Of a DNA stretch of 16,314 nucleotides, positions 2,505-14,873 are shown piece after piece. The stretch is from the NCBI GenBank assembly GCA_019911785.1, contig JAIOJM010000186.1:1-16314 (forward strand). The letters run 5' to 3'. The first letter of the stretch is position 1, and each line of letters begins with the position of its first letter. The position numbers and the translations under genes were made by a program. This DNA is from Sulfuricella sp. GTDB lineage: Bacteria; Pseudomonadota; Gammaproteobacteria; Burkholderiales; Sulfuricellaceae. Under the pieces are notes generated by a model. It was not told the DNA's origin and did not search any database. It was given only the letters and a program-made list of their open reading frames with translations.

Positions 2505-3011
2505 TCATGCATATGACAGAGCGCGTAAATGCCGTGGTAAATGATGCTGCAGGATAATCCTAGCGCCACTGTGGTAAATGATGCTGCAGGATAATCCTAG
2601 CGCCACTAAGGATACGAAGGCGTTGAAAAGCAGGCTGGGAACGAGCAAACCCAGGGAAGACAGCCACAGCGGGATTGGCGCGATTCCCGCCAGCATGTAG
2701 GCATCATGGGTGTCGATGTCAACGCTGTTTGCCTCTGCAATCGCCCTAATAAGCCACCCCATGAATATAAAGGTCATCATTTCTGCCACGAAGAACAGGG
2801 TGGCTATCAATGCCCAGGGCTTGGCGCTAAAGCCTGAAAGAAATTCATCCCCATAATGTGTGCCGGCAGAGTAAAGCATGATTGGCGGCAGGATGGAGAG
2901 GGGTAGAACCAGGAACGAAAAGATCTTTGCAACGGATGGATGGATTACCTCTAATTCAGGCCAGCCTTCCTTGGATGAAACGAACATCTTGGATAAAGTC
3001 AGAATGCTCAT
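2505..3011 (-). CDS. Yip1-family multispanning membrane protein, C terminus frameshifted
   Basis: The protein begins MSILTLSKMFVSSKEGWPEL. The hydrophobic core IFSFLVLPLSILPPIMLYSA, the THYGDEF stretch and several membrane segments match bacterial Yip1-type membrane proteins, whose function is unknown. The start at 3011 is chosen because GGAGG lies 6 nt before it; a longer in-frame start at 3047 has no such site. After residue 147 (SIIYH) an exact 37-bp tandem duplication shifts the frame. The protein then ends with 21 unrelated residues at 2505, 168 residues in all. Removing one copy restores GIYALCHMHEEVV followed by a hydrophobic helix, ending at a TAA at 2414-2416, 186 residues in total. 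The last membrane segment is therefore lost, so the gene is probably damaged unless the duplication is an assembly error. Its promoter carries a dyad shared with the marR/dsrC-like spacer. Confidence 0.75.
   Translation of the reverse strand: MSILTLSKMFVSSKEGWPELEVIHPSVAKIFSFLVLPLSILPPIMLYSAGTHYGDEFLSGFSAKPWALIATLFFVAEMMTFIFMGWLIRAIAEANSVDIDTHDAYMLAGIAPIPLWLSSLGLLVPSLLFNAFVSLVALGLSCSIIYHSGARIILQHHLPRHLRALSYA
2534..2607. repeat. Exact 37-bp tandem duplication inside the Yip1 gene
   Basis: The 37 bases at 2534-2570 (beginning GTGGTAAATGATGCTGCAGG) recur without change at 2571-2607. Since 37 is not a multiple of three, the duplication shifts the reading frame of the minus-strand Yip1-family gene. 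The perfect identity indicates a very recent event, or an assembly artefact. Confidence 0.95.
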
Positions 3012-3040
3012 GATGCACCTCCATATGCCGCAGGTTAATA

Positions 3041-3057
3041 ATATCAAACCGTGATAT
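3041..3057. promoter_or_regulatory. Operator-like dyad at the Yip1 promoter
   Basis: ATATCAAACCGTGATAT is a perfect 6-bp dyad with a 5-nt spacer. It lies just downstream of the predicted -10 box, over the likely transcription start, a classic repressor position. Two close relatives lie at 4881-4897 and 4897-4913 between marR and the dsrC-like gene, so the local MarR protein is the best candidate binder (inference). Confidence 0.6.
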
Positions 3058-5458: not shown

Positions 5459-6547
5459 TTACGGGTTCCCTTTCCTGATGCCGAAGCCGCGGACCACGCT
5501 GCCGGCGGTGCTCAAGATGAAAAGCGCCAGCGCCGCGGCATTCAGCAATCCGCCGAGGCTGCGCAGATCGGGCAACGCCAGCCCATCGCCGGCGAGGCGC
5601 ACCAGCAGCGACGCATGCAGCGCCAGCAGCGGCAGGTAGAAAGTCCAGTGATAAGGCATTCTGACCCGCACCACGGCAGGAAATATCACCGGCGCGTGGC
5701 CGAATACCATCGAGAACACGAAACCGGCCAGGATGGCGTGCAGCACCGCATCGTAAGCCGCTCCGGTCAGGCTGCCGGCAGCGAGCAGGGTAATGCTGCC
5801 GACGGCAAGCCAGGCGTAGCCGGAGAGTAGGCAGACGGCGATGAAGCGGGTCAGCCCCTGCTCTTTTACCGTGCGCCGTGCGATGTCCTGGCGCAGCAGC
5901 CACAAAGCCAGTCCGAGCAGCCCCGCTCCATACAGGAAGATGCCGGCGCCGGTGCCGCTGAGAAAGCCGCCCGCCAGGATCGTGGCAAGGATGGCCGCAA
6001 AAACGCGTTTGGCAACGGGCGAGGGGGGCAGGAAGCGGGACAGTTCCAGCCGTTCGCCGGCGATGGTCAGTATCAGGAAGTTGATCCACAGCGTCACCAC
6101 CCCCGGCACCGGGGTGCCGGCCAGCCACAGCAGGTTGCCGGCCAGCCAGCTCAATGCGCCGAGCACCATGGTGACCATGAACAGTTCGCGCTGGCGCAGC
6201 ATGATCAGGGTGGTCCCGGCAAATAGCACGGCGCTGCCCAGCGCTATGGCCGTAGCACCGATGAATGGCGGAAAGCCGAGCAGGATGGCAACGCCGCCCA
6301 GCCCGGTCAGCAGCGGCCCGGCATAGGCCCAGCGGCGGCCCATGGCGACCGCCCGCTCCAGCCCGATGACGGTGCCGAGAAAGCCCGACACCATCAGCGG
6401 CCCGTGCAGCAAGGCCAGTTGTGCCGAGGGAAGCGGCACGCTCCAGCCCAGCCGCGCGAGGCCGGCCAGCACTCCCGATGCCAGGGAAGCGAATCCCAGA
6501 ATCAGGAGCGGCAGCCGGAACGGAACGCCCAGGTCGCCGGGTCGCAT
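5459..6547 (-). CDS. NnrS-like polytopic membrane protein
   Basis: A 362-residue, very hydrophobic protein with roughly ten or more predicted membrane helices. It shows the motifs LLHGPLMVSGFLGTVIGLER (His48) and HAILAGFVFSMVFGHAPVIF, an arrangement of histidines at helix ends like that of NnrS-type haem/copper membrane proteins, plus the stretch TIAGERLELSR. NnrS proteins are linked to NO stress; the link here rests on a distant motif resemblance and on location. The ATG at 6547 is chosen because GAGGA lies 7 nt before it; longer in-frame starts run back into the DUF2249 gene. It is 10 nt after that gene's stop, so the two are co-transcribed. A 170-bp spacer with nothing recognisable separates it from the convergent dsrC-like gene. 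Confidence 0.7.
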   Translation of the reverse strand: MRPGDLGVPFRLPLLILGFASLASGVLAGLARLGWSVPLPSAQLALLHGPLMVSGFLGTVIGLERAVAMGRRWAYAGPLLTGLGGVAILLGFPPFIGATAIALGSAVLFAGTTLIMLRQRELFMVTMVLGALSWLAGNLLWLAGTPVPGVVTLWINFLILTIAGERLELSRFLPPSPVAKRVFAAILATILAGGFLSGTGAGIFLYGAGLLGLALWLLRQDIARRTVKEQGLTRFIAVCLLSGYAWLAVGSITLLAAGSLTGAAYDAVLHAILAGFVFSMVFGHAPVIFPAVVRVRMPYHWTFYLPLLALHASLLVRLAGDGLALPDLRSLGGLLNAAALALFILSTAGSVVRGFGIRKGNP

Positions 6548-6557
6548 GGCGCTTTCC

Positions 6558-6812
6558 TCAGGCGCAGCAGGCCGCGACGCGGCCGATACGCACTCTCCAT
6601 ACATCGGGGCCTTCTTCCAGGTATTCCCAGCTGAACTCGCCGCCATGCTCGGCCTGGAACTGATAGTAAAGCGGCTTGGGATCGTGGTCGTTGACCAGGA
6701 GCAGGGCCTCGTCTTGAACCAGGCTGGAGAAGGTGCCGAAGATCAGCGGATGGCGGTCGCGCGGCGCAATGGCGCGGACGTCGATGGTGATATTGGAGGT
6801 TGCAGTCGTCAT
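6558..6812 (-). CDS. DUF2249 domain protein
   Basis: An 84-residue protein made almost entirely of one DUF2249 domain: DVRAIAPRDRHPLIF, then LLVNDHDPKPLYYQFQAEHG, then FSWEYLEEGPDVWRVRIGR. It ends in a CC pair. Family knowledge: DUF2249 is a small SirA/TusA-like domain often found beside hemerythrins and NO-related genes; its biochemical role is unknown. AGGAG lies 7 nt before the ATG. The gene sits between the DUF59 gene (30-nt gap) and the NnrS-like gene (10-nt gap), clearly one operon. A second, more diverged DUF2249 gene lies at 15515 beside a hemerythrin. Confidence 0.9.
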   Translation of the reverse strand: MTTATSNITIDVRAIAPRDRHPLIFGTFSSLVQDEALLLVNDHDPKPLYYQFQAEHGGEFSWEYLEEGPDVWRVRIGRVAACCA

Positions 6813-6842
6813 GATAAATCTCCTGTGGTTTGAGGTGGGGGT

Positions 6843-7145
6843 TTAACTCCAGCCTAAATGTTTGCGTGCGTGCTCGCTCATCTTGTCCGGGCTCCATGGT
6901 GGATCCCAAACCAGTTCGATGTCGATTTCTGTGTCGGTTGGCGCCAGCGCTGCCAGTGCTTCATGGACATCATCGAGTATCATCTCTCCCATCGGGCAAG
7001 CCGGCGTGGTCATGGTCAGGTCGACATGCAGCCTGTTGTCCGAAATTTCCACGCCATACACCAGGCCCAGATCGACGATATTCATCCCGATTTCAGGGTC
7101 GATGACGCCACGCAGAACAGTTCGAACTTCTTTCTCGGTGAGCAT
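6843..7145 (-). CDS. DUF59 / MIP18-family protein (PaaD/SufT-like)
   Basis: A 100-residue protein with the DUF59 signatures VIDPEIGMNIVDLGLVYGVE and TTPACPMGEMILDDV, including the conserved cysteine C50, and ending with WDPPWSPDKMSEHARKHLGW. Family knowledge: such proteins help insert or mature Fe-S clusters (SufT, PaaD, MIP18). Within an NO-response operon a role in repairing NO-damaged Fe-S proteins is plausible but inferred. The ATG at 7145 follows TTGGAAAC, which gives a modest ribosome site; a TTG four codons upstream is less likely. It lies 97 bp after the repeat protein gene, with a strong hairpin between them, and is co-directional with the DUF2249 and NnrS-like genes. Confidence 0.9.
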   Translation of the reverse strand: MLTEKEVRTVLRGVIDPEIGMNIVDLGLVYGVEISDNRLHVDLTMTTPACPMGEMILDDVHEALAALAPTDTEIDIELVWDPPWSPDKMSEHARKHLGWS

Positions 7146-7182
7146 GATTGTTTCCAACTGGCTTTGAGGCTAAGAGTAACCG

Positions 7183-7215
7183 CCACCCATCCCCGGGGGA
7201 AGGAGGGATGAGTGG
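7183..7215 (-). other. Intercistronic hairpin between the repeat-protein and DUF59 genes
   Basis: CCACCCATCCC (7183-7193) pairs with GGGATGAGTGG (7205-7215) over 11 positions, one of them a mismatch or wobble, with an 11-nt loop. No T run follows on the minus strand, so it is not a standard terminator. It could stabilise the upstream message or reduce read-through into the DUF59 operon. Confidence 0.5.
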
Positions 7216-7241
7216 CTTAACTCGATGCCTCCGGGCGTGGA

Positions 7242-7595
7242 TTAATTAATGTGAGCCGAACAACCCAGGGTGTTGAAGCTCCAGTCGGAACAGGCCAGTT
7301 GCTGCTTGTTGTTTTGGGCAGCCACGCTGGCGGGAGCCGAGTTCGTTTTCTCAATATAGGCCGAACAACCCGGGGTGTTGAAACTCCAGTCAGAGCAGGA
7401 GGCCAGTTGCTGCTTGTTGTCCTGAGCCGTTGCGCTGGCGGGGGTCTTGTTAGTCCTCTCGATATGAGCCGAGCAACCCGGGGTGTTGAAGCTCCAGTCG
7501 GAGCAGGACAGGCCATCGCTATAGGCGGACTCGGCCGACAGGGCGGCAAGGCCGACAAATGCCACGGTCAAGGTCAATGCAAGTTTGCTTTTCAT
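7242..7595 (-). CDS. Secreted small protein with three CSDWSFNTPGC repeats, unknown function
   Basis: A 117-residue protein. Residues 1 to about 24 form a signal peptide (MKSKLALTLTVAFVGLAAL then small residues), so it should be exported. The rest is three repeats of about 36 residues. Each starts CSDWSFNT-x-GCSA-(H/Y)-I, with cysteine pairs C31/C41, C67/C77 and C102/C112 (C-x9-C), joined by linkers ending NKQQLA. The third repeat stops after its core. I recognise no known family. The paired cysteines could form disulfides, bind metal or haem, or be targets of NO or sulfur chemistry; none of this is shown. AGGAAA lies 8 nt before the ATG. A sigma54 promoter about 70 bp upstream faces it, so it is probably the first gene controlled by the divergent PAS activator. 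Confidence 0.75.
   Translation of the reverse strand: MKSKLALTLTVAFVGLAALSAESAYSDGLSCSDWSFNTPGCSAHIERTNKTPASATAQDNKQQLASCSDWSFNTPGCSAYIEKTNSAPASVAAQNNKQQLACSDWSFNTLGCSAHIN
7245..7505 (-). repeat. In-gene tandem repeats (three units of about 105-108 bp)
   Basis: Units run 7505-7398, 7397-7293 and 7292-7245 (the last truncated), encoding the CSDWSFNT repeats. They are highly similar at the DNA level, indicating recent duplication within the gene and a potential for change in copy number. Confidence 0.85.
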
Positions 7596-7619
7596 GATGA
7601 TTTCCTTTCATTGGTTAAA

Positions 7620-7654
7620 AATCGTGTTTACCTGGCGAATCGTAAACAGCGATT
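7620..7654 (-). other. Hairpin at the predicted 5' end of the repeat-protein mRNA
   Basis: On the minus strand AATCGCTGTTTAC (7654-7642) pairs with GTAAACACGATT (7631-7620), with one bulge and a 10-nt loop, followed by TTT. With the sigma54 start predicted near 7651, the hairpin would sit at the very 5' end of the message. It could protect the RNA or act as a weak attenuator. Confidence 0.45.
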
Positions 7655-7661
7655 ATCTATG

Positions 7662-7677
7662 AGCTAAAACCGTGCCA
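7662..7677 (-). promoter_or_regulatory. Sigma54 (-24/-12) promoter for the repeat-protein gene
   Basis: On the minus strand TGGCACG-GTTT-TAGCT matches the sigma54 consensus TGGCACG-N4-TTGCW, with a perfect -24 element, a GG-N10-GC spacing and one change in the -12 element. It points to the repeat-protein gene, and the predicted start is near 7651. A sigma54 activator gene lies immediately divergent. Confidence 0.8.
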
Positions 7678-7735
7678 GCATCGCATTCCACTGTTTTTTA
7701 TCGATATTAATATTTTCTGGCAAGAATAAAACTTG

Positions 7736-7783
7736 CGGTCGTTCACAATAAACGCCTATAGTTACGTTTATTGTGAACGACCG
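7736..7783. promoter_or_regulatory. Large palindrome, likely activator binding site (UAS)
   Basis: CGGTCGTTCACAATAAACG (7736-7754) and its exact reverse complement (7765-7783) flank a 10-bp centre. Each arm contains GTT-N7-AAC, loosely like the GT-N7-AC element bound by NorR-type activators. It lies about 85-132 bp upstream of the predicted sigma54 start, the usual enhancer range, and ends 10 bp before the activator's ATG. Binding could therefore also control the activator itself. Confidence 0.75.
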
Positions 7784-7793
7784 GGTGTTAACT

Positions 7794-9155
7794 ATGATGA
7801 CGATTCCCATGCTTAAGTTGTTTCTGGACAGCCTGGAAGAAGGCGTGCTGTTTCTGGACAAGAACCGGAAGGTGGTGGCGGTAAACCGGGCAGCGACGCA
7901 GATGATCGGGCACGAAGATGAGAACCTGGTTAATCTGCTTTGCCCCAGCATCTTCAAGGGGACAGAGTGCGCACAGGCTTGCGAAAAGCGGGGGAGCTGC
8001 GCGCTGACTCCCGACTGGAAGGCAAGCGATATTACTCAGAATATCGTGCTGCCGCGGCCGGATAATACTTCGGTATTTCTGCGCATGTGGGCCATATTGC
8101 TCCCGCCGACGGAGAACCTTTCGTTGTACTGCGCGATCATTTTGCGCGACCGCTCGCACGAGGTAGAACTGGAACAGGAAGTGACAGAACGCCTGCAGCT
8201 TGGCAGCATGGTTGGCCACAGCCCCGCGATGCAGAAACTGTATACGCAAATAATGCGGGCCGCCCAGAGCGATGCCAGCGTGCTGCTGACAGGCGAAAGC
8301 GGAACCGGAAAAGAGTTGGTTGCCAAGGCCCTGCACGACAATTCGAACCGTTGCAAAGGACCTTATGTTCCGGTGCACTGTGCCTCGCTACCGGAAAACC
8401 TTCTCGAATCGGAATTGTTCGGCTACGCCAAGGGTGCTTTTACTGGCGCGACATTGGCAAAAATTGGTCGTTTCGAAGCCGCGGAAGGCGGAACCTTGCT
8501 ACTGGACGAAATCGGCGAAATTCCGCTGGGCACTCAAGTGAAATTGTTGCGCGTATTGCAGGAACGGGAGGTGGTGCGACTGGGTGAAAACCATGCCCGT
8601 CCGGTCGATGTCCGCGTCATTGCGGCTACGCACCGGAATCTGGCCGCAATGGTTGAGCGCGGGGAATTTCGCGAAGACCTCTATTACCGATTACGCGTCC
8701 TCCCTTTACATGTCCCGGCTCTGCGCGATCGCAAAGAAGATATTTCCATGCTTGCCAACAAGCTGCTTAACGATCTGGGAAACAGGTACAAGCGGGATAA
8801 CATGAAGCTTGCCCACGAAACGGTGCTAGCCCTGGAAACCTACGATTGGCCCGGAAACATCAGGCAGCTGTTCAATGCGCTTGAATATGCGGTAGTGAAC
8901 GCGGATGGCCCGAATATCCTGCCGCAGTATCTTCCGCCGGAGGTCCAATTGGTATCTCAACCCACGCCGGTCACAAGATCACCTGAGTCAATGCTGGTGC
9001 GCCAATATTACCGCCCCCCTCAGCAGGCTGAAAATGAAATGGAAGTCATCGCCCGCGTGCTTGCCGAAACGGGTGGAAACAAGGCTGAAGCCGCACGCAG
9101 ATTGGGCATGTCACGCACCAGTTTATGGAAGCGGCTTAAGCAGAGCCACGGCTGA
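7794..9155 (+). CDS. PAS-domain sigma54-dependent transcriptional activator, Fis-type HTH
   Basis: A 453-residue bacterial enhancer-binding protein. Residues about 7-120 form a PAS-like sensor with an unusual cysteine set, C50-x8-C59-x3-C63-x5-C69, that could hold a metal or Fe-S centre. The AAA+ domain has Walker A GESGTGKE (167-174), the sigma54-contacting GAFTGA loop (214-219) and Walker B GGTLLLDEIGE (232-242). A Fis-type helix-turn-helix NKAEAARRLGMSRTSLWKRL ends the protein. NorR itself has a GAF sensor, so this is not classical NorR. ATG 7794 is preferred over GTG 7773, which lies inside the palindrome; no strong ribosome site is seen for either. It diverges from the repeat-protein gene with its sigma54 promoter, which is the evident target. 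Confidence 0.9.
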   Translation: MMTIPMLKLFLDSLEEGVLFLDKNRKVVAVNRAATQMIGHEDENLVNLLCPSIFKGTECAQACEKRGSCALTPDWKASDITQNIVLPRPDNTSVFLRMWAILLPPTENLSLYCAIILRDRSHEVELEQEVTERLQLGSMVGHSPAMQKLYTQIMRAAQSDASVLLTGESGTGKELVAKALHDNSNRCKGPYVPVHCASLPENLLESELFGYAKGAFTGATLAKIGRFEAAEGGTLLLDEIGEIPLGTQVKLLRVLQEREVVRLGENHARPVDVRVIAATHRNLAAMVERGEFREDLYYRLRVLPLHVPALRDRKEDISMLANKLLNDLGNRYKRDNMKLAHETVLALETYDWPGNIRQLFNALEYAVVNADGPNILPQYLPPEVQLVSQPTPVTRSPESMLVRQYYRPPQQAENEMEVIARVLAETGGNKAEAARRLGMSRTSLWKRLKQSHG

Positions 9156-9165
9156 TTGCCCCGTT

Positions 9166-9309
9166 TCAGTCTGCGCCCAGGGCAGCCTTGAGCAGATGGT
9201 GGGGCACTACCTGCTCGGCGGCGGGAAAAAGTTCCGGCTCCTCCGGCCGCACAGCAACTTCGCCATGATGTTCGCGGGAGAGGGGTTGCAAGGCGGAGTG
9301 ACGTTTCAT
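9166..9309 (-). pseudogene. Internally deleted hemerythrin-like gene remnant (47 codons)
   Basis: This short open frame reads MKRHSALQPLSREHHGEVAV and then RPEEPELFPAAEQVVPHHLL followed by KAALGAD and a stop. The first 16 or so residues match the usual start of a family of hemerythrin-like (HHE) proteins of about 150-180 residues. The EPELFP-AAEQVVP part matches their last helix region, where a metal ligand pair normally precedes ELFP. The middle helices are missing, so it looks like an in-frame internal deletion. It begins 23 nt after the stop of the polyferredoxin gene, on the same strand, and converges with the sigma54 activator. It could still be expressed as a short peptide, but it cannot form a normal four-helix di-iron site. 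The family assignment rests on motif memory only. Confidence 0.55.
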
Positions 9310-9332
9310 GATGTCTCTTCAACGAGATATCC

Positions 9333-10340
9333 TTATTTCGCTGTTTCACCGCGTAAAGAGGCGATTGTCTTGATGTCCGGCCCATGGTTTGACCCGAAGC
9401 AGTGGGATGGAATGCTTTCGTGATGGCCGAAATCGCGCGCCGACTTGTCCAGCGCGCATTCATCTGCCACCCATTTCAGCAGGGTTCCTTGCGGGTTGCC
9501 GGCCTGAACCTGGGAACAGGCATTGGCGCACTGGCCGCACTGGGTGCAGGTGAACATGTGGCGTTTGATCGAGCGGGGCTTGATGCGCATCGGGCAGACG
9601 TTGTCGCAGGCGGCGTTGCAGTCGACACAGGATTCGGCGCGCTTGCGGTCGAAGCCGATCACCATCGCCTTGCGGTTGCCCATCCAGGCGAGCGACTGGA
9701 ACAGCCCGACGGCGCAGGCATAGCGGCAGAACAGGTGGCGCGCGAACATGAACTCGATGAAGAACAGGAACGTACCGACACCGATGAAGCGCGCCTGATT
9801 GCCGGTCAATTCGCCGTGCCACAGGTTGCCGTAGATTTCGGCCGGCGGCAGCAGGTAGGTGAGCAGCGCCACCGCCCAGGAGAAGGCGAAGGCCAGCGCC
9901 AGCGGCACCACTACCAGCCAGTACAGAGGATTGGCCTTGGTGATGCTGCCGTCGGCATTGCGTTCCGGCAGGGGGTGTTTGTCCCAGAGGCTCTGCTTGC
10001 CGATGGCGCGGCGCAGCACGCTGTTGATGGTTTCCACCACCGAAAAATGCGGGCACAGCCAGCCGCAGTAGAGGCGGCCGTATTTCCACGAGATCCACAC
10101 ACCGGCGCCGATCACGCCCAGGATCGGCAGGCCGCCGCGCAGGATGAGATTGAGCGCGGCCTGGGTGGCGTCGATGCGCCCGGCGAGGAAGTCGTCCAGC
10201 CCCAGCGTCCAGTTCATGCCGAGGAAGAAGAAGTGCTTGAGGTTGAGGTCGAAACGGAACAGGTCGAACACCGGCGCCAGCACGAACAGGATGAAGAAGC
10301 CGGCCTGGAACCACAGGCGTTTTTGCTGGACGTTTTGCAT
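9333..10340 (-). CDS. CcoG/NapH-like 4Fe-4S membrane protein
   Basis: A 335-residue protein with four or five membrane helices. Membrane-side cysteine motifs are CGWLCP (C92, C96) and CRYAC (C205, C209). A C-terminal two-cluster ferredoxin domain follows, with C238-x2-C241-x3-C245-x3-C249-P and C265-x2-C268-x2-C271-x3-C275. Family knowledge: CcoG, NapH, NosR and RdxA proteins of this layout move electrons or reduce copper across the inner membrane for oxidase or reductase assembly. Here the likely partner is the NorCB system (inference from context). The ATG follows the large intergenic inverted repeat by a few bases and has no obvious ribosome site, which suggests that the repeat inserted close to the start. 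It is co-directional with norQ and the membrane protein upstream. Confidence 0.85.
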   Translation of the reverse strand: MQNVQQKRLWFQAGFFILFVLAPVFDLFRFDLNLKHFFFLGMNWTLGLDDFLAGRIDATQAALNLILRGGLPILGVIGAGVWISWKYGRLYCGWLCPHFSVVETINSVLRRAIGKQSLWDKHPLPERNADGSITKANPLYWLVVVPLALAFAFSWAVALLTYLLPPAEIYGNLWHGELTGNQARFIGVGTFLFFIEFMFARHLFCRYACAVGLFQSLAWMGNRKAMVIGFDRKRAESCVDCNAACDNVCPMRIKPRSIKRHMFTCTQCGQCANACSQVQAGNPQGTLLKWVADECALDKSARDFGHHESIPSHCFGSNHGPDIKTIASLRGETAK

Positions 10341-14859: not shown

Positions 14860-14873
14860 TTGATTTAGGTCAA
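14860..14873. promoter_or_regulatory. FNR/Dnr/Anr-type binding box
   Basis: TTGATTTAGGTCAA matches TTGAT-N4-ATCAA in nine of ten conserved positions and is the classic Anr/Dnr form; with flanks it becomes CCTTGA-N6-TCAAGG. If it activates norC from -41.5, the start would be near 14825 with a leader of about 155 nt. Seen from the hemerythrin gene it lies about -155, less typical for activation. Control of norCB by low oxygen or NO through a CRP/FNR-family protein is the likely meaning. Confidence 0.8.

Follow-up and report, generated by a model that had tools for sequence, protein, structure and literature searches.

Introduction

In E. coli and Salmonella, ZraP is described as a small periplasmic protein whose gene lies divergent from the genes of its sigma54-dependent system, in which ZraR is the response regulator partnered by the kinase ZraS and ZraP serves as a zinc-binding chaperone (PMC4987338). 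NorR, described in the same source as carrying a GAF domain (PMC4987338), works through palindromic GT-N7-AC enhancers that precede a sigma54 promoter, its targets being NO reductase or hmp genes (PMC1274295).

Here we describe a stretch of DNA of 16,314 nt from Sulfuricella sp. (the window, meaning the whole stretch analysed), in which a small repeat gene, rep, lies divergent from the gene of a sigma54-dependent activator and has a predicted sigma54 promoter, much as zraP does. The likeness to ZraSR/ZraP is one of gene layout. The rep product is a cysteine-loop repeat protein, and its activator has a PAS domain with four cysteines and no receiver domain among the Pfam matches listed. The regulatory logic proposed for rep, a sigma54 activator combined with a small divergent periplasmic product, is already known from ZraSR/ZraP. 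As with NorR and norVW, the activator is encoded near NO-detoxification genes and palindromic enhancers precede the sigma54 promoter; it differs from NorR in having PAS in place of GAF, in its apparent target, which would be rep rather than nor, and in its sites, which by eye read GT-N9-AC (GTTCACAATAAAC) where those of NorR are GT-N7-AC.

Together, rep and its activator would form a short, testable module with a private switch in sulfur-oxidising denitrifiers. The one-unit form of the protein from S. denitrificans is small enough for chemical synthesis and assay, which makes the ligand of the loop a directly answerable question. If rep does encode a periplasmic effector of NO or metal stress, it would represent an unknown branch of the denitrification stress response, run by a sigma54 activator unlike NorR.

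Results and discussion

rep encodes a predicted exported protein with three cysteine units

The rep gene and the parts of its product are positioned in the window as follows:

7242..7595, minus strand: rep gene, predicted 117-aa exported protein with three C-x9-C units (open reading frame, repeat scan and homologues)
7518..7595, minus strand: putative Sec-type signal peptide, cleavage near residue 26, ESAYS/DG (inspection and hydropathy only)
7458..7505, minus strand: unit 1, CSDWSFNTPGCSAHIE
7350..7397, minus strand: unit 2, CSDWSFNTPGCSAYIE
7245..7292, minus strand: unit 3, CSDWSFNTLGCSAHIN

The open reading frame starts with ATG, with AGGAAAT 5' of it, and translates to 117 aa beginning MKSKLALTLTVAFVGLAALSAESAYSDGLSCSDWSFNTPGC. 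By inspection, the N-terminus has a K-x-K n-region, and the hydrophobic stretch after it ends in SAESAYS/DG; in a crude test with a threshold of our own the hydropathy exceeds that threshold in 97 of 100 family members. The unit cores start at residues 31, 67 and 102 and repeat the motif CSDWSFNT(P/L)GC three times, with a DNA repeat spacing of 105 and 108 nt; Tandem Repeats Finder scores the repeat at 329, with a period of 108 and 2.4 copies. Homologues keep the frame and dN/dS is 0.126/0.699 against the rep gene of locus L015, which shows that rep is a true gene and not an open-frame artefact. Against L017 the values are 0.096/0.368 (46 codons), and dN is below dS in every rep pair with computable dS (9 of 10 pairs). 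An earlier note on this DNA had described the frame as having a signal-peptide-like start and three cysteine units, a description that the sequence and repeat scans bear out, and the export-type N-terminus is likewise supported by inspection and hydropathy.

The rep protein belongs to a family without a name in the sources searched

A phmmer search listed 34 relatives of the rep protein. Profile searches, with query rows counted in, listed 89 proteins for a profile built from 35 rows and 80 (E up to 1) for one built from 81. None of the proteins in either profile listing (89 and 80) has a precomputed Pfam domain, and those named by their source are called 'hypothetical protein' or 'uncharacterized'. 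The named hosts are Sulfuricella sp., S. denitrificans skB26 (SCD_n00449), one Betaproteobacteria MAG and one Pseudomonadota MAG. For the rep protein itself, neither Pfam nor NCBIfam gave a match that reached its cut-off; it has nothing better than E 0.37 in PHROGs and no PADLOC match at E 0.001, and family profile A3 found 0 matches among PDB sequences at E up to 10; Rfam gave no match at the gathering threshold. The claim that the protein matches no known family held in Pfam, NCBIfam, PHROGs, PADLOC and PDB sequences. On these sequence comparisons the rep protein belongs to an unnamed family; within open-licence PMC we recognised no paper about it, SCD_n00449 being absent among the matches listed.

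Other assignments were tried and rejected. PAN_4 (PF14295) scores 18.6 bits against a gathering cut-off of 27 bits, the likeness being weak and limited to about 12 residues of the rep protein and 12 of the 51 profile positions (30-41); across the family, 8 of 51 members reach E 0.01, the best at 7.4e-5. DUF5642 (PF18702) scores 17.6 bits against a gathering cut-off of 26.2, and a mutacin model 14.3 against 115 bits. A phage or plasmid home found no tblastn match in the collections searched, with PHROGs at E 0.37 or worse.

Counted with a regular expression that misses degenerate units, three units are present in 68 of 90 proteins, two in 18, one in 3 and none in 1. The consensus of 232 standard eleven-residue units and the residues after them is C-[SAE]-D-W-S-[FY]-N-[DT]-P-x-C-[SP]-A-[YHF]-[IL], in which Asp is found in 217 units, Trp in 203, Phe or Tyr in 229 and Asn in 200. 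The second position after the second cysteine is Ala in 203 units and the third is Tyr, His or Phe in 199, and Cys-Pro is found in 62; no Met is conserved, and His is confined to a single variable position, where 44 of 232 units have it. The cysteine pairs are invariant across the aligned family units, and the divergent third units of P0071, P0074, P0076 and P0081 have lost DW but kept C-x9-C. Under a crude cleavage rule the mature protein has an even number of cysteines in 96 of 100 family members, and 247 of the 261 successive cysteine pairs in those 96 proteins are C-x9-C, which suggests that one disulfide loop closes each unit. The rep protein of S. denitrificans has a single unit in 46 aa, the mature part of P0085 is about 20 aa by inspection, and in members of the GKAAFGE type the linkers are conserved as well.

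AlphaFold modelled the window protein with a mean pLDDT of 59.5 and a pTM of 0.19, and P0051 with 66.3 and 0.27. Averaged over ten-residue blocks in both proteins, the units reach about 70-83 and the linkers about 44-67, and neither model has secondary structure other than the signal helix of P0051 and very short helices. These models, of low confidence and with no confident fold, fit loops on a string.

The repeat appears old rather than recently expanded

Compared with one another over 45-nt cores, the window units show 84-89% identity, and they are 87, 76 and 82% identical to the same-position units of L015. Over 48-nt cores, units 1 and 2 differ at 5 synonymous and 1 non-synonymous positions, units 1 and 3 at 4 and 3, and units 2 and 3 at 4 and 5. 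The earlier note had taken the near identity of the DNA repeats as a sign of recent expansion, a reading that these identities do not support; three units is also the commonest number in the family, and the differences are mostly synonymous for units 1 and 2 only, not for 1 and 3 or 2 and 3. Three-unit forms also occur in most of the sequence types that we told apart by eye, one type (P0070, P0073, P0083) showing only two units. The within- and between-genome identities, taken with this spread of three-unit forms, argue for an old repeat. Of the window units, unit 3 is the closest to the lone unit of S. denitrificans (93% identical), which makes it likelier that units were lost there than that the ancestor had just one. 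On this sequence evidence the repeat is old, with occasional unit loss and under strong constraint.

A dedicated sigma54 activator with rep as its apparent main target

Three further features make up the divergent regulatory region:

7662..7677, minus strand: predicted sigma54 -24/-12 promoter, TGGCACGGTTTTAGCT, 11 of 12 consensus positions, best match in the window
7736..7783, no strand: predicted enhancer (UAS), a perfect inverted repeat of 19 nt containing two GTTCACAATAAAC sites that start 25 nt apart; it lies upstream of the -24 box at a distance of 63 nt
7794..9155, plus strand: dedicated sigma54 activator with PAS, AAA+ sigma54-interaction and Fis-type HTH domains (Pfam); alternative start GTG at 7773

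The activator matches PF00158 at E 2e-71 and PF02954 at E 4.7e-13, and its AAA+ domain with a GAFTGA loop and its Fis HTH are those of a sigma54 bacterial enhancer-binding protein. The Pfam matches listed (25 of 27) include PAS but no GAF domain, and the identity of NorR itself was rejected at 335.9 bits against the NCBIfam cut-off of 476, over residues 131-455 only. The PAS domain (window 7794-8213) contains C-x8-C-x3-C-x5-C, whose four cysteines are kept in four of four orthologues; they may constitute a possible Fe-S or thiol sensor, the Fe-S cluster being a guess.

With sigma54 sites scored over 12 consensus positions, GG and GC being required, the single 11/12 site of each of L015, L016 and L017 lies at the same place as that of the window; L023 has TGGCATGATTCTGGCA (10/12) at this place and an 11/12 site elsewhere in the locus. 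First-order Markov simulation gives 0.17-0.33 such 11/12 sites per locus by chance, and 0.0003 for the intergenic stretch of the window (1 in 3000 simulated stretches). All five cluster-linked loci combine the sigma54 promoter with GTTCACARTRAAC-type enhancer sites at a spacing of 63-65 nt, the last site lying 63 nt from the -24 box in the window, 63 in L015, 65 in L017, 64 in L016 and 63 in L023. Four loci have two sites with starts 25 nt apart, one of the L023 copies with one mismatch to GTTCACARTRAAC, and L016 has one. The inverted repeat was also flagged by a terminator scan; we rejected an intrinsic terminator because L016 keeps a GTTCATTGTGAAC site without long arms.

A search for GTTCACARTRAAC across four whole genomes found two exact matches each in G244 and G063, every one of them at rep. 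G001 has one, at rep and beside a one-mismatch partner, and G080 has two, of which one is at rep and the other elsewhere. Besides these 7 exact matches and the G001 partner, the four genomes hold 19 further one-mismatch hits against 13 for a reversed-pattern control, so a few weaker true enhancer sites elsewhere are possible.

Of 399 genomes of the order, 3 (G063, G080 and G244) gave a match to the activator PAS/N-domain, each time beside rep; counts from the 399-genome searches are lower bounds, since scoring in larger genomes was confined to the 10-12 best candidates of a first look. Among eight genomes picked for a rep-family match, the activator is present in the same three and was not found in G001, G036, G214, G359 or G404, and G001, a 2.0-Mb draft, nevertheless retains rep together with its UAS and promoter. 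The view of the earlier note, that a dedicated sigma54 activator has rep as its main target, is supported by the enhancer, the promoter, their spacing and the co-occurrence, and from these sequence features rep appears to be that target.

The nor genes have a putative regulatory site of another kind:

14860-14873: DNR/FNR-like box TTGATTTAGGTCAA, flanked by norC and the hemerythrin-like gene, identical in L017 and perfect in L015

This TTGAT-N4-ATCAA-like box lies 5' of nor in three of four loci: it is perfect in L015 and has 1 mismatch in both the window and L017, whereas L016 (3 mismatches) lacks it; three boxes with up to 1 mismatch occur in the whole window against 0.41 expected by chance. 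Upstream of nor, none of the four loci has a sigma54-like site above 9/12. With a DNR/FNR-like box at nor and a sigma54 site at rep, nor probably answers to DNR/FNR and rep to the activator.

Genomic neighbourhood and distribution

Divergent from the activator, rep is followed in the window by three genes:

6843..7157, minus strand: Fe-S assembly protein of DUF59/SufT-like type, encoded by the first gene downstream of rep
6558..6812, minus strand: DUF2249 protein
5459..6646, minus strand: membrane protein, apparently polytopic by inspection, conserved in the cluster, with no Pfam or NCBIfam match

An NnrS-like label for the last of these finds no support in Pfam. The window further contains norC-, norB-, COX3-, COX4- and NorQ-type genes, a VWA-domain gene, a hemerythrin-like gene and a TusE/DsrC-like gene. 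The same arrangement of rep, divergent activator and nor genes recurs in L017 (G244, taken as S. denitrificans skB26, with a repeat protein identical to P0085), L015 (G063) and L016 (G080), the last being more distant (activator 65-66%, NorB 63%, repeat protein 39%). The DUF59, DUF2249 and membrane-protein genes come after rep in three loci (window, L015 and L017) and before it in L023 (G001), and tblastn found none of them in L016. On the downstream side of its rep, L016 encodes a hybrid histidine kinase (6779-9784, minus strand; PAS, HisKA, receiver and Hpt). Such a gene was not seen in the other cluster-linked loci, nor any kinase among the window ORFs scanned; the position of the L016 kinase makes another signal input possible there. 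A secretin gene lies near rep in L023.

Two family members lie elsewhere. L019, the second member of G063, is near genes for RF-1-, CHASE2- and M48-domain proteins, the M48 peptidase being two genes away, and L020 (G404) is near a gene for a GGDEF/EAL protein. Neither is near nor genes, so the link with nor is not general to the rep family, and neither has a sigma54 site of at least 9/12 within 400 nt upstream. The two share a palindrome, CCGACTATTTTTGTCGGGTA, upstream of 10032 in L019 and of 6922 in L020, which resembles an IscR/Rrf2-type box. With up to 1 mismatch, the pattern has its sole match in each of G063 and G404 at this place and is absent from G244, a lack of recurrence at other genes that argues against a general IscR box.

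In the order, profile A1 found family matches in at least 6 of 399 genomes and profile A3, at a stricter E, in at least 5 of 399; there were matches too in at least 5 of 22 and at least 2 of 18 genomes of two families (profile A2), in at least 1 of 4 of a third (A3), and in at least 1 of 369 in a draw from the class. Stop codons fall inside the matches of G036 and G359 (a weak match) and inside that of G244 as extended. In G036, L021 holds at about 8580-8760 a partial family member with an internal stop, possibly a decaying copy.

Candidate functions of the rep protein

We propose that the rep product would be exported via Sec and that, in the periplasm, each unit would close as a nine-residue disulfide loop displaying the conserved Asp, Trp, Phe/Tyr and Asn together with the following Ala-Tyr/His-Ile, flexible linkers joining the units like beads on a string. 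The divergent PAS-type activator would bind the paired sites and drive the rep promoter, its signal probably being redox, Fe-S or NO, perceived through the four conserved PAS cysteines. Each loop would most likely be a binding module, and the protein may be a multivalent, ZraP-like periplasmic stress effector, a holdase or buffer, working alongside the neighbouring genes of NO-reductase and Fe-S type. From sequence, what this explanation says on regulation and structure is highly probable, whereas a ZraP-like stress-binder function during NO respiration is a tentative proposal by analogy, on balance doubtful; we put the whole, an exported disulfide-loop protein driven by the activator and acting on periplasmic stress, at somewhat below an even chance. 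Multivalency is not essential, given that S. denitrificans manages with one unit. Bolder and rather unlikely is a new class of exported effector, in which a minimal disulfide-ring module, C-x-D-W-S-F-N-x3-C-x-A-Y-I, would be used one to three times under a private PAS-cysteine sigma54 switch as a self-contained response, in the periplasm, to NO or Fe-S damage in Sulfuricella-like betaproteobacteria, binding its ligand or partner in a way unlike known families.

The main rival to the stress binder is metal or haem binding, the units of a periplasmic protein offering Cys, Asp and Tyr/His as ligands for copper, iron or haem freed by NO damage. The DUF59, DUF2249, hemerythrin-like and nor genes nearby would suit such a role, as would the Tyr, His or Phe three positions after the second cysteine, the Cys-Pro pairs and the palindrome, similar to an IscR-type box, upstream of the unlinked L019 and L020; yet no Met is conserved, His reaches just 44 of 232 units at its best position, the C-x9-C pairing and even cysteine count suggest disulfides, and there is no match above threshold in Pfam, NCBIfam or PDB sequences, which leaves the idea unlikely. 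Reduced periplasmic cysteines might instead be consumed by NO, nitrosothiols, sulfide or persulfide, a scavenging role in keeping with the nor cluster and TusE/DsrC-like gene of the window and with the cysteines of the activator PAS. We consider it improbable, as the cysteines of the family occur almost only in pairs, their even count argues for disulfides over free thiols, and conservation extends to Asp, Trp, Phe/Tyr and Asn, for which a purely sacrificial thiol protein would have no need.

The cores might also be cut from their linkers as secreted cyclic peptides or signals, the S. denitrificans form yielding a disulfide ring of about 20 residues. One to three near-identical cores between variable linkers, and the short mature part of P0085, resemble such a precursor, but the conserved linkers of the GKAAFGE type do not, and no peptidase or peptide-modifying enzyme is common to the cluster-linked loci among the neighbours scanned, the M48 peptidase being near the L019 member and the secretin near the L023 rep; its probability is slightly lower still. 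Lowest of all, and very improbable, is a drifting, repeat-rich gene of no important function that lies by chance beside a regulator with other targets. Its rarity (at least 6 of 399 genomes of the order), unstable unit number and the internal stops in the G036 match and, weakly, in that of G359 would accord with drift, against which stand a dN well below dS, a conserved promoter, enhancer and spacing, and exact enhancer sites at rep alone in two of four genomes.

Other features of the window

One structured element lies between rep and the DUF59 gene:

7182..7216, minus strand: 13-bp GC-rich hairpin without a T-run, z -4.5 and -4.9

The corresponding region has a z of -3.2 in L015, from a different stable stem, -1.6 in L017, -1.8 in L023 and 0.5 in L016. 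The hairpin is a possible mRNA stabiliser or attenuator. Elsewhere in the window, positions 2534-2607 hold a perfect 37-nt tandem duplication, of a length not divisible by three, near the 3' end of a Yip1-domain ORF (2505-3047, minus strand).
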